Shown here: positions 31,679 to 37,533 of the stretch, one piece after another
Layout of the letters: each line of letters opens with the position of its first letter
Numbering within the stretch: position 1 is the stretch's first letter
DNA from: Anaerolinea sp.
GTDB taxonomy: Bacteria > Chloroflexota > Anaerolineae > Anaerolineales > Anaerolineaceae
DNA: 64,000 bases
Reading direction: 5' to 3'
NCBI GenBank assembly: GCA_020725865.1
Contig: DYEC01000019.1
Coordinates: 1-64,000, forward strand
Translations under genes and position numbers: made by a program
The notes under the pieces: model-generated
The model's database searches: none
What the model saw: the letters and a program-made list of their open reading frames with translations, nothing else
Told to the model about the DNA's origin: nothing

Positions 31679-32431
31679 ATGAAAAGACCTCGCATTCGCA
31701 GAGAAATCACTAATCCCAAATTACTCACTATCCGTGCTTGGGCAGTGCATGTATATACAAGTCTGGGTCTGCCGTTCGCTTTGCTGGCAGCGCTTGAAAT
31801 CCTGCGCGGTAATGCGCAGATGGCATTTGTGTATCTCGGTATTTGCAACGCTATTGATACTACCGATGGAACGCTGGCGCGCGCTTGGAAAGTGAACGTG
31901 TGGGCAGCCCAGTTTGACGGGCGCAAGCTAGATGACATTATTGATTACATCACTTACGCTTTCCTTCCGTTATTGTTGGCTTACCGCTTTGAACTGATTA
32001 GCGGCACAGCTGGCCTGGTGACGGCATTCATTGTACTGATAGCAGCAGTGTATGGTTTCTGCCAGAAGGTAGCCAAAACCGTGGACGGTTACTTCACTGG
32101 TTTTCCAAATTACTGGAACTTTGTCGTTTTCTATCTTTACTTGCTCAAAACACCCCAATGGGCAAATATGATCATCTTGCTTACCCTAGCAGTTTTGGTC
32201 TTTGTTCCGGTTAAATACCTGACTTTCAGCAGTAAGGTCATGCGGCCGCTGACCACTGTTGTCGCTTCGTTGTATGGCGGCGTATTGATCGTCATGTTAG
32301 TGCTGTTTGATAAAATACCCTTGCCCTGGATTCTGGCTTCGCTGATATTCCCTGTATACTATTTTGGAGTTTCGGTCTACTTATACCTTAAAGGTATCAC
32401 TGACCACCACTCCGAAGGTAAGGCGGATTAA
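31679..32431 (+). CDS. CDP-alcohol phosphatidyltransferase, phosphatidylcholine synthase-like
   Basis: An integral membrane enzyme of phospholipid synthesis, 250 residues with about 6-8 membrane helices. The catalytic motif is D60-xx-D63-G64-xx-A67-R68, then 12 residues, G81-xxx-D85-xxx-D89. The spacing of 12 between AR and G is that of phosphatidylcholine synthase (Pcs), which joins choline to CDP-diacylglycerol; most other CDP-alcohol enzymes have 8. Its length also matches bacterial Pcs (about 240). I therefore infer a Pcs-like enzyme, though another polar head group is possible. An extended -10 promoter lies 40 bp upstream and AGGG 7 nt before the ATG. No choline transport gene is nearby. 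Confidence 0.75.
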   Translation: MKRPRIRREITNPKLLTIRAWAVHVYTSLGLPFALLAALEILRGNAQMAFVYLGICNAIDTTDGTLARAWKVNVWAAQFDGRKLDDIIDYITYAFLPLLLAYRFELISGTAGLVTAFIVLIAAVYGFCQKVAKTVDGYFTGFPNYWNFVVFYLYLLKTPQWANMIILLTLAVLVFVPVKYLTFSSKVMRPLTTVVASLYGGVLIVMLVLFDKIPLPWILASLIFPVYYFGVSVYLYLKGITDHHSEGKAD

Positions 32432-33432: not shown

Positions 33433-34218
33433 ATGTCCTATCGAAACGTACTGCTGGCAACAGCGATCCTCACCCTGATGGTAACAGCCTGCACACCGGC
33501 TACCCCTGTCGCACCGCAAGTTGTTGAGGTTACCCGCGTTGTTCCACAGACCGTTGTTGTCACGCAAATCGTTGAGATCGAAAAAATCATTATTGCCACC
33601 TCTGAACCCACCCAAACCGTCCAGGAAACAATCACTGCTGAACCGCAAGCCACTCCAGACAACCAACCTGTTTTCAGCGCATGGTGCACTAAACAATTCA
33701 CCTCTCCACAGGATGTTGCTCAAAATGGCCAGGCAGCACAGGATGCTGATATTGCTTATGAGGAAGATGGCAAGCTGATCCTGCATACTGAGCGATCCTA
33801 CTGCGCCTTTTTCTTTACCTTTGGCACTGAATTGCCAAAAGGTGTTCATCTGGATTTTTATGACACCCGTCCAGATCCCTGGGCTTCATTGGAACTCACA
33901 CCAACTACAAGCAACCTGGCAATGGGATATGCCTTGAGTAATAACCCTTATATTGTGAACCCGCCTTATTGGGAAATTACTTACAAACTCTCTTTGAAAG
34001 ATTCCAATGGCAAAGAGCTTTGGAACCGTGACGTAACGTTCAAACGAAGCTGGACTCCCAAGCCATGCTATGGTGGTATGTGGCCTGATGCAGCCACACT
34101 GAAGTGCCCCGCTTTGCCCGAGGTACATCCCTGGGACCCCTGGTACGGATACGATACTCCCTACGATGGCAAGCCGGGCAATCTTCAGGAAGATTGCGGG
34201 AACGACCCATCCTGTTAA
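33433..34218 (+). CDS. Lipoprotein of unknown function
   Basis: I do not recognise the mature domain. The 261-residue product has a lipoprotein signal ending in VTAC (Cys20), a valine/threonine linker with VEVTRVV and VVVTQIVEI (about 29-55), a second Thr/Pro/Glu-rich stretch, and a globular part from about residue 78. This part has six cysteines (CTKQF, YCAFF, KPCYG, LKCPA, EDCGNDPSC), which may form disulfides outside the cell. The C-terminal 45 residues are rich in Trp, Pro, Tyr and Asp (HPWDPWYGYDTPYDG). The gene is monocistronic: own promoter at 33382 and a terminator at 34241. Confidence 0.7.
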   Translation: MSYRNVLLATAILTLMVTACTPATPVAPQVVEVTRVVPQTVVVTQIVEIEKIIIATSEPTQTVQETITAEPQATPDNQPVFSAWCTKQFTSPQDVAQNGQAAQDADIAYEEDGKLILHTERSYCAFFFTFGTELPKGVHLDFYDTRPDPWASLELTPTTSNLAMGYALSNNPYIVNPPYWEITYKLSLKDSNGKELWNRDVTFKRSWTPKPCYGGMWPDAATLKCPALPEVHPWDPWYGYDTPYDGKPGNLQEDCGNDPSC

Positions 34219-34300: not shown

Positions 34301-35572
34301 TCATCCGCTCCAAAAGCGAAACAGGCTAAAACCATAAAACACGATCTGCGGATCAAGCCGTAAAAAGCGAACTAACCCCATCACAAGCGCAAAAAACCCC
34401 CGGCTGACCGGTGTATTGTAGAAAAACAACAGCAGAAAAATAAAAAAGGCAAAACGGCTGACAATTGCACCAATTTCCTGCCAGCGTAATGGCAAATATG
34501 GTGCAATAATTCCATACCCATCCAACCCCGGCAATGGTAGCAAATTAAGCAACAAAGCTGTCACTTGTAGAAAAGCTAGAAACGCCACCGCGCTCCAAAA
34601 CTCCGGACGGATTTGCCAATCAGAAAGCGCAAAACCGGTCAGGAAAGGGATAGAGAGCACCAGCGCACACAACGCTGTCATCATTGGTCCTGCTGCAGAA
34701 ACCAGACTGCGCATCCGCCGATCAGTGATTGCTGCCATGTTGATATAAACCGCTCCCCCGGGTAAACCGATCCCACCGGAGATGAGGATCAACAAAGGGA
34801 AAAGAATGCTCAATAGCCATTGGGTGTACCGTAAGGGATTGAGTGACAAATATCCTTGAGCTGCCACCGAAGTATCGCCGCTGTTGTATGCAGTTAAAGC
34901 ATGCCCAAACTCATGCAGACAAAGCGAGACAATCCATCCTCCTGCAACAAACAAAAACACCGGCACACCGCCCTTTAACAAGCGGGTGAAAGCCAGCAGC
35001 CCGGCAAGCAGGGTGAAACCAACCAGACCCAGAAAAACCGGACTGATCGATAACGAAGGAAGTGCAAACGCCTTCAAAAGCTCAATAGAATCGGTGGATG
35101 GCCGTGAGACGAAAATGGGACGTTCCCGTACTGGTGGAGACGAGGGCGAGCGTGCCGAAAACAGGGATTCCCGGACGCCGTTTTGAACCAGAATACGGCT
35201 GACTTCGCTATTGGGGTGACGCAATATGCCCAATAATATCAACGTGGTATCCACATACCCCAGTCTTCGAAAGGCGGCTTCCTTAGTTGCCTCGCGCAGG
35301 ATTGCCTGTGTCTCGGCTGAATAAGGGGGATTAGCAAGCGGTGCTCCAACCGGTTGCAAGCGCCGTAATACGTCTTCTATTTGCTGGTGCATCTTCTCTA
35401 CCGGCAACCCCAATGCGCGCATCGCACGCACCGCGCCACAATCGTAAGTCTTGAGAAGTCCCAGCAGGACATGCTCGGGCAACACTTCGCGAAAACCTTG
35501 CTCACTGGCAAGTTGGGCAGCTAGAATCAGGACAACTCGGGCATCTTTTGTAAATTCAACCTTTAATTCCAT
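34301..35572 (-). CDS. Clp N-domain fused to a site-2 (M50) intramembrane metalloprotease
   Basis: An unusual two-part protein of 423 residues. Residues 5-135 contain two Clp-N repeats (PEHVLLGLLKTYDCG at 32 and YVDTTLILLGIL at 106), the adaptor- and substrate-binding module normally found at the start of ClpC or ClpA. A Ser/Pro-rich linker (140-160) leads to a membrane part with M50 site-2 protease hallmarks: HExxH at H220-E221-H224 (LCLHEFGHA) and the third metal ligand D351 in LLPLPGLDG. The active site is therefore complete and lies within the membrane, while the Clp-N part should be cytoplasmic. Start alternatives are TTG 35584 (GGAG 5 nt upstream), ATG 35575 and ATG 35572. It follows the GGDEF gene by about 48 bp on the same strand and is probably in one operon with V4R and GGDEF. 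Confidence 0.85.
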   Translation of the reverse strand: MELKVEFTKDARVVLILAAQLASEQGFREVLPEHVLLGLLKTYDCGAVRAMRALGLPVEKMHQQIEDVLRRLQPVGAPLANPPYSAETQAILREATKEAAFRRLGYVDTTLILLGILRHPNSEVSRILVQNGVRESLFSARSPSSPPVRERPIFVSRPSTDSIELLKAFALPSLSISPVFLGLVGFTLLAGLLAFTRLLKGGVPVFLFVAGGWIVSLCLHEFGHALTAYNSGDTSVAAQGYLSLNPLRYTQWLLSILFPLLILISGGIGLPGGAVYINMAAITDRRMRSLVSAAGPMMTALCALVLSIPFLTGFALSDWQIRPEFWSAVAFLAFLQVTALLLNLLPLPGLDGYGIIAPYLPLRWQEIGAIVSRFAFFIFLLLFFYNTPVSRGFFALVMGLVRFLRLDPQIVFYGFSLFRFWSG

Positions 35573-35620: not shown

Positions 35621-37015
35621 TCAAGCCTCATTGACCGCCACCCTGTTGCGCCCATCTTGCTTTGCCCGATACAGCGCCTGATCCGCGCGGTCCAGCAGAA
35701 AATGCAGGGCATTATCCTCTTCTTTGAGTCCGGCAACACCAATGCTGACCGTAACGCTTAATCTACCAGCCTGAGTCTCAAAAGAATATCCCTCAATAAT
35801 CTGCCGTAGCCGTTCTGCCGCCATGCGCGCTTCTTCGGTGTCCGTCTCCGGCATCACAAAGGCAATTTCTTCCCCACCATAACGACCAATGATATCCACC
35901 CGGCGCATGTTTTGACGACACAGTCTGCTCACTTCTTGCAGCACCTGATCACCAACACTGTGACCATACAGGTCATTAACTTTCTTGAAATGATCCACAT
36001 CCAGCATTAAAGCTGACAGCCGACCATGATAACGGCGGGCACGCTCAAATGCTTGATCAGCCACTTCAAAGAAATGCCGCCGATTTGATAGCCCAGTCAG
36101 GCTGTCTGTCGTTGCAAGTTCCTGAAGCTGCTCAAACAAGTGCGCTCTTTCTACAGCTACCGCAGTTTGATCGGCAAGTGTCATCAAACGCCCGGCGTGA
36201 TCTTCTGTGAAAAAACGTGGGGTTGCGCTTAGCAGATTGATAAACCCAATTGTCTCATCTTTGACCACAATAGGCGCGCCCAGATAAGACCGTGTCCATA
36301 AGCTAAAGGGCGTATAAAACCAGTTAGAATGGCGCACATCTTCAAGCATGTAGGGCTGATGGCTGCGTACCATGATGCGCAAAGTGTTAATTTTTTTCAG
36401 TGGCCAACGTGCAGTACGTAGAAGTTCTTCCGTACCAGGAGCCATACGATCAAACCCCCAATGACTGACCACACGTACTGTCTGCCTGCGATCTACCTGC
36501 ATGATGTTGACAGCATCACACGGTATTAACCGAACCACACTATCTAAAACCACGCGAAACACGTCTTTTAATTCAAGAGCGGCATTGAGCGCAGCAGCTG
36601 TATCCCGCATAACCTCTGACAGCAACCGACGTTCTTCTTCAGCCCGGCGAGCTTGCCGTAAGCTTTCTGTCATCTTATTGAAAGAAACCGAAAACTCCCC
36701 CATAAACTCCACACGTTGGGTTAAGTCACCTTCTGCTACCCGTTGTACCTGCCAGGTCAGATGGCGCAGATTTGCCTGTAATGTTTTCAAGTAACCTGCA
36801 AGTGCACCTTTAACTTTCAGCTCTGCTGACAGATCACCCGCTGAGAGTCGCTCAGCAAATTCGCAAATCGCATGGTAATCCTCAATCAGTCTTCCCCATT
36901 CAGTTGCATCTGCGTTCTGCACTGGCAAATCTTCCGGTAAAGGCTCTCCCCGAATGAGCTTCTGGAGGATCTCCAGCCAGTTTTTGGAGCAGGATAACAA
37001 CACTTTATCACTCAT
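35621..37015 (-). CDS. Diguanylate cyclase (HAMP-like, GAF, GGDEF)
   Basis: Makes cyclic di-GMP from two GTP. The protein is 464 residues and has no membrane segment. A HAMP-like helical region without a transmembrane helix covers about 55-125 (AEGDLTQRVEFMGEF), a GAF domain about 145-290, and the GGDEF domain 300-460. The active site is GGEEI at 380-384, a functional variant of GGDEF, and the inhibitory I-site RxxD (R371-D374) five residues before it is intact, so product inhibition is expected. Its ATG overlaps the stop of the V4R gene by 4 bp (ATGA), giving tight translational coupling: the V4R protein is the likely sensory partner. Confidence 0.92.
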   Translation of the reverse strand: MSDKVLLSCSKNWLEILQKLIRGEPLPEDLPVQNADATEWGRLIEDYHAICEFAERLSAGDLSAELKVKGALAGYLKTLQANLRHLTWQVQRVAEGDLTQRVEFMGEFSVSFNKMTESLRQARRAEEERRLLSEVMRDTAAALNAALELKDVFRVVLDSVVRLIPCDAVNIMQVDRRQTVRVVSHWGFDRMAPGTEELLRTARWPLKKINTLRIMVRSHQPYMLEDVRHSNWFYTPFSLWTRSYLGAPIVVKDETIGFINLLSATPRFFTEDHAGRLMTLADQTAVAVERAHLFEQLQELATTDSLTGLSNRRHFFEVADQAFERARRYHGRLSALMLDVDHFKKVNDLYGHSVGDQVLQEVSRLCRQNMRRVDIIGRYGGEEIAFVMPETDTEEARMAAERLRQIIEGYSFETQAGRLSVTVSIGVAGLKEEDNALHFLLDRADQALYRAKQDGRNRVAVNEA

Positions 37016-37533
37016 GCAAGCGCCTTAGCCCAAAAGCGGCAGGTTCGATCACCTGTACACCAGCAGTCTATTTCTTTGACCTGGAAGGGTCTACCTGTAA
37101 AAGATTCAACCAGCGCCGAGATAAAACCTTCATCGTAAACACAAATCTCATAATCCAGTTCAGGAAGTCCGGAGCAATCCAGATCTTCTGATACAGTGAC
37201 CACCAGCTCGCCTTCTTCCATACTGGCTTTTTCAACACGGAAGATGCCAATGGACATTTCGCGCAGGACTTCTTGCAAGCGTCGAACAAACGAATCTAGA
37301 CTATCTACTTCTCCAATATAATGCTGGTAGAAAGCTCGACCTGCTGTATAACCAGCCTGATAAAAAATCTCATCAGTGGCTTCAGTACCGTATCGCTGTT
37401 CCAGCACAGCTCGCAGGGTAAACTGCATCAGCCGATATATTTCCAAACGGGTGGATTTACCCAGATTCGGGCGTCCCTTTTCAAGATCGCCTAACAGTTC
37501 CCAGCGAAACGCATATTTTCTTTCACCTGTCAC
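37012..37533 (-). CDS. V4R-domain sensor protein
   Basis: A 173-residue cytoplasmic protein with a V4R (4-vinyl reductase) domain, a small-molecule-binding fold used in sensors of hydrocarbons and related ligands. The C-terminal signature CWCTGDRTCRFWAK, with the Cys-x-Gly-x-x-x-Cys spacing, and the acidic YEICVYDEGFISALVESFTG are typical. The start is GTG with GAGAGG 6 nt before it. It overlaps the GGDEF gene by 4 bp. The pair looks like a two-protein form of the single-chain V4R-GAF-GGDEF arrangement. The ligand is unknown; the cysteines could also bind a metal. Confidence 0.82.
   Translation of the reverse strand: MTGERKYAFRWELLGDLEKGRPNLGKSTRLEIYRLMQFTLRAVLEQRYGTEATDEIFYQAGYTAGRAFYQHYIGEVDSLDSFVRRLQEVLREMSIGIFRVEKASMEEGELVVTVSEDLDCSGLPELDYEICVYDEGFISALVESFTGRPFQVKEIDCWCTGDRTCRFWAKALA

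Follow-up and report, generated by a model that had tools for sequence, protein, structure and literature searches.

What does the substrate-binding domain of a Clp unfoldase do at the front of an intramembrane protease? The question is raised by one gene in the window, i.e., in the whole stretch of 64,000 nucleotides of an Anaerolinea sp. contig analyzed here, whose product combines the N-terminal domain of Clp ATPases (Clp-N) with a site-2 protease of the M50 family.

The fusion gene and its Clp-N domain

The gene occupies positions 34301..35572 of the minus strand and encodes a protein of 423 aa. The reading frame has no interruption and begins with a tandem ATG ATG (start at 35572 or 35575), while the plus strand of the same segment contains many stops; the first-pass annotation had placed the locus correctly, the coding strand being the minus one. 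Scans for promoters and terminators returned sites no more numerous than in shuffles. Since several other M50 proteins are encoded in the same genome, the fusion protein is a paralogue and not the sole site-2 protease of the organism.

That a Clp-N domain and an M50 protease reside in one membrane protein, as was initially proposed, was confirmed by Pfam, both families scoring above their cut-offs (Clp_N, 35.2 bits against 20.7; Peptidase_M50, 35.7 bits against 27.2), and by the recurrence of the same order in relatives (see below). The Clp-N domain spans residues about 4-141 (35150..35563, minus strand), and the profile search does find its signal within residues 1-135. The first of the two repeats reported by the first-pass annotation is clear (residues 18-69) and the second is weak by Pfam, yet the two-repeat domain as a whole was recovered by other means: residues 6-133 align to Bacillus ClpC with an E-value of 8.7e-14 (phmmer), and the AlphaFold2 model of residues 3-151 aligns to the N-domains of ClpC1, ClpB and ClpA with Z-scores of up to 21.7 (VIA-align). 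NCBIfam gave ClpB/ClpA-type matches to the N-terminal stretch, all of them sub-threshold, as is expected for an isolated N-domain.

The likeness to ClpC, ClpB and ClpA is confined to this two-repeat fold. Pfam gave no AAA match in the 423-aa protein, which accordingly lacks the two AAA+ modules of an Hsp100/ClpC unfoldase; unlike these ATPases, it is also membrane-anchored and does not conserve their phosphoarginine pockets. Structures 8ad9, 8b9o, 4y0b and 4y0c were among the structural matches of the Clp-N model. They represent mycobacterial ClpC2 and plant ClpT1/ClpT2, in which the Clp-N fold likewise serves without an attached AAA+ ring; those proteins, in contrast to the fusion, are not membrane proteases.

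The protease part and its orientation in the membrane

The Clp-N domain is followed by a linker with many basic residues (residues 142-177; 35042..35149, minus strand, as are all features below), which is partly disordered in the AlphaFold model (pLDDT <50 at residues 144-170), and then by two predicted transmembrane helices, TM1 (residues 178-196; 34985..35041) and TM2 (residues 203-230; 34883..34966), both delimited from the model and charge analysis. TM2 carries the zinc-binding and catalytic motif HEFGH (H220, E221 and H224; 34901..34915). The third zinc ligand, assigned by homology, is D351 in the downstream motif LPLPGLDG (34520..34522). The positions given for these four residues in the first-pass annotation were correct, and all four are invariant in the alignments of 11 and of 30 fusions. 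The protein thus possesses both hallmarks of site-2 proteases, an HExxH motif embedded in a membrane helix and an Asp ligand further along the chain. The conserved stretch between TM2 and TM3 (GYLSLNPLRYT ... GGIGLPGGAVY; 34721..34882) probably corresponds to the re-entrant loop that site-2 proteases insert into the membrane, judging by its counterparts in SpoIVFB and mjS2P (PMC11486902).

Structure prediction, which the first-pass annotation had suggested as a check, recovered both the Clp-N and the site-2 fold. The whole-chain model (pLDDT 88.3) consists of a folded N-domain, the low-confidence linker (residues 144-170) and a helical membrane part, the latter reaching a pLDDT of 93.8 when modelled alone. 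The four top VIA-align rows for the membrane part were all site-2 proteases, namely RasP (Z 10.1), mjS2P (Z 8.6) and SpoIVFB (Z 8.5 and 7.4), and the next one, an unrelated protein, scored 5.7. These Z-scores are moderate, and Foldseek, run with the membrane part alone, gave no significant match, which counts against the assignment; it was VIA-align that resolved the fold. We infer that the fusion protein would perform intramembrane proteolysis.

The positive-inside rule was used for orientation. The linker preceding TM1 contains on average 6.0 Lys and Arg residues, the TM1-TM2 loop 0.5 and the TM3-TM4 loop 0.3, the inner loops being more basic. As the linker is basic and the outer loops are nearly free of Lys and Arg, the N-terminus is predicted to lie inside, i.e., the Clp-N domain would be cytosolic.

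In its architecture the protein differs from both known layouts considered here. With the PDZ-containing group I proteases RseP and RasP it shares the catalytic core, including the intramembrane HExxH and the Asp ligand; however, their extra domain is extracytoplasmic, while that of the fusion is predicted to be cytosolic. With the CBS-containing group III proteases SpoIVFB and mjS2P it shares the site-2 fold, a helix ahead of the one bearing HExxH, the Asp ligand and a cytosolic accessory domain (for the location in SpoIVFB see PMC11486902), but in these enzymes the accessory domain is a C-terminal CBS and in the fusion an N-terminal Clp-N. Pfam scans of the window protein and 30 fusions matched neither PDZ nor CBS, in agreement with the initial claim that these usual partners are missing, and in the model the chain ends after the last predicted membrane helices. 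The protein would thus be a zinc metalloprotease that cuts within the membrane and is laid out like mjS2P and SpoIVFB. Of its about six helices, TM2 would carry HExxH and TM4 would precede the Asp ligand, and a flexible basic linker would join this part to a cytosolic N-terminal Clp-N domain.

Distribution, history and gene neighbourhood

The domain search suggested in the first-pass annotation found the same order across Chloroflexota. There were 13 fusions among 400 genomes in the order sample, 19 among 400 in the phylum sample, and 16 among 396 in the class sample, not counting one truncated at a contig end and four of family f136 (all of these counts include the window's own genome, and the samples partly overlap). 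Both Pfam families were matched in all 30 fusions (E 0.01), while in a set of 22 relatives, half of them picked as fusions and half as M50-only proteins, Clp_N matched exactly 11. An assembly artefact joining adjacent genes, which had been considered as a pitfall, is ruled out by the occurrence of the same domain order in independent genomes. The fusions are scattered over many Chloroflexota families and are only 34-47% identical to the window protein; the best 80 of 497 genome-collection matches added Chloroflexota records from Litorilinea (Caldilineaceae), Ardenticatenales and Herpetosiphonaceae, and no fusion outside Chloroflexota was seen among them. Three of the four f136 members were read, and all three (L206-L208) carry Clp-N before a much longer linker to the membrane part and have an extended C-terminus.

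M50-only relatives are common in family f12 of the same order (mostly 213-230 aa) and were found in Actinomycetota among the same best 80 of 497 matches. Such proteins of Actinomycetota and Chloroflexota, annotated as ‘site-2 protease family protein’, belong to the same M50 subfamily (about 43-51% identity to the membrane part of the window protein) but lack Clp-N. In the plasmid collection the matches were either M50-only, as in records of Rhizobium, Bosea, Nocardia and Amycolatopsis, or Clp ATPases, with no fusion, and relatives were not found in the viral collection. In one record (L010:478-2058, minus strand, genome G029) the M50 part runs into unrelated sequence past the LFFN motif, probably owing to a contig mis-join. 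Separately, a stand-alone Clp-N-like ORF of 198 aa was noted beside an 831-aa Clp ATPase frame in the genome of a relative (G027:C114:22920-23417), and other short Clp-N frames occur in genomes G028 (272 aa), G658 (352 aa) and G601 (314 aa).

Fused and unfused proteins intermingle on the deep branches of trees built from the M50 core, which require four to five changes; since several of these branches carry the fusion, selection appears to maintain it. The f136 fusions fall near the short f12 proteins with weak support. If this placement holds, it would speak for an ancient fusion followed by losses, the root of the tree not being fixed; repeated gain of Clp-N is an alternative that the trees would also allow. 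The Clp-N domain tree is compatible with a single origin of the fusion domains. It lends no support to a recent capture of Clp-N from a local clpC gene, as it does not group the domains of the f42 fusions with local clpC genes.

The fusion gene of the window is directly preceded, on the same strand, by a gene of a GAF-GGDEF diguanylate cyclase (35621-37015, minus strand; 48 bp gap), which is in turn overlapped by a V4R gene (37012-37533, minus strand). The three genes are possibly co-transcribed in the window, and the V4R and GAF-GGDEF unit is not kept beside the fusion in relatives. No neighbour is conserved across Anaerolineae families, and a substrate or partner gene in cis was consequently rejected. 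On the other side, a predicted lipoprotein with an LMVTAC lipobox and no Pfam match (33433-34218, plus strand) is convergent with the fusion gene, and a membrane protein encoded at 31679-32431 (plus strand) contains a DGxxAR...GxxxDxxxD motif like that of CDP-alcohol phosphotransferases, with no Pfam match at E 0.001.

A different neighbourhood was revealed in family f42, where the gene order is clpC ... radA-PIN-ispD-ispF-cysS-rlmB-[fusion]-yacP-pyk and where, in five genomes, a ClpC-type gene of the same strand lies about 20 kb upstream of the fusion. The encoded ClpC-type proteins are about 57-60% identical to those of the window's genome, and all four complete copies contain in their second half a [VIL]GF motif, as is expected of a ClpP-docking loop. 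This arrangement hints at a possible coupling to ClpC(P): Clp-N would cooperate with ClpC or with ClpC adaptors, and either the cut fragment would be handed directly to ClpCP or the adaptors would be shared. Precedents for successive cleavage exist, as the site-2 product of RseA (PMC10202637) and the fragments of RsgI (PMC12203970) are degraded by ClpXP; these, however, employ ClpX, which is devoid of Clp-N. Moreover, co-location with clpC carries little weight because the region holds housekeeping genes, and neither f39 nor the Anaerolineae, the window included, share this neighbourhood. ClpS is absent from the window's genome (the control did match), and the fusions do not conserve the phosphoarginine pockets, which in ClpC serve as a contact site for MecA as well (PMC12583610). 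The tie to ClpC raised in the first-pass annotation thus has its sole basis in the gene neighbourhood of one other family, and we regard such coupling as conceivable but unlikely.

What the Clp-N domain may bind

The N-domain of ClpC possesses two phosphoarginine pockets with the key residues E32 and E106, and a separate hydrophobic groove, present in ClpC and ClpB, to which unfolded polypeptide and certain adaptors bind (PMC12583610). The first-pass annotation had suggested that Clp-N reads phosphoarginine on substrates and thereby gates intramembrane cleavage. The window protein does retain the E32 equivalent (pocket 2), having Thr at position 106, but among the 30 fusions the E106 equivalent (pocket 1) is kept in one and that of E32 in nine, with Asp in three more, whereas Hsp100 proteins of the same phylum have E32 in 9 of 10 and E106 in all nine scored. 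Phosphoarginine reading is therefore not supported for the family, which does not conserve the two glutamates that define this ClpC type of Clp-N. Neither the organism's own genome nor 151 Chloroflexota genomes gave a match to an arginine kinase, although no positive control was matched either. Phosphoarginine sensing can hence be regarded as very improbable.

As for the groove, positions chosen from ClpC1 mutants named in PDB titles were mapped by alignment; positions 80 and 88 are mostly hydrophobic in the fusions, but 92 and 96 are not. Furthermore, the surface of Clp-N varies between families and its most conserved positions look structural. Both observations weigh against a role in substrate binding, as does the existence of M50-only relatives, which indicates that Clp-N is dispensable for retention of the protease part. 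The structural appearance of the conserved positions and the abundance of M50-only relatives fit, instead, a domain that merely stabilises, oligomerises or auto-inhibits the protease and has no specific ligand. However, a folded two-repeat domain has been kept across many families at 34-47% identity, and a passive spacer needs less than that, which makes a mere appendage rather improbable.

Considering the predicted folds, catalytic residues, conservation of the fusion and charge-based orientation, all of them supported by our results, we favour as the probable reading a site-2-type protease whose flexibly tethered cytosolic Clp-N domain binds a substrate or a partner; the activity, the binding and the substrate we infer. 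Clp-N would most likely act as a binding and tethering module, keeping either a partner protein or the cytosolic portion of a membrane substrate near the active-site cleft. Choice of substrate by such tethering could be compared with the role of PDZ in RseP, outside the cell, and of the cytosolic linker and CBS region in SpoIVFB, the linker of which contacts its substrate (PMC11486902). Selection or gating of substrates by the Clp-N front end, as originally proposed, is thus the best-supported reading, with the exception of its arginine-phosphate part.

PDZ and CBS are the accessory domains listed in a review on the site-2 proteases of bacteria (PMC10202637). Like the first-pass annotation, which knew of no characterised protein with the Clp-N-M50 order, we found no description of the pairing in the literature searched, and domain databases may list the architecture automatically. 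Recurrence of the fusion across Chloroflexota suggests a route for choosing or passing on membrane substrates that is undescribed in that literature. A bolder and rather doubtful proposal is that these proteins form a class of their own among site-2 proteases: by recruiting substrates or Clp partners, their cytosolic Clp-N would physically couple intramembrane cleavage to cytosolic Clp proteolysis. In bacterial site-2 proteases, the accessory domains known so far are PDZ outside and CBS in the cytosol, and little is understood of how cytosolic features select substrates. As a natural and conserved fusion to the substrate-binding domain of Clp unfoldases, the protein provides a case in which cytosolic substrate selection can be tested and, possibly, also a direct link from intramembrane cutting to Clp degradation.
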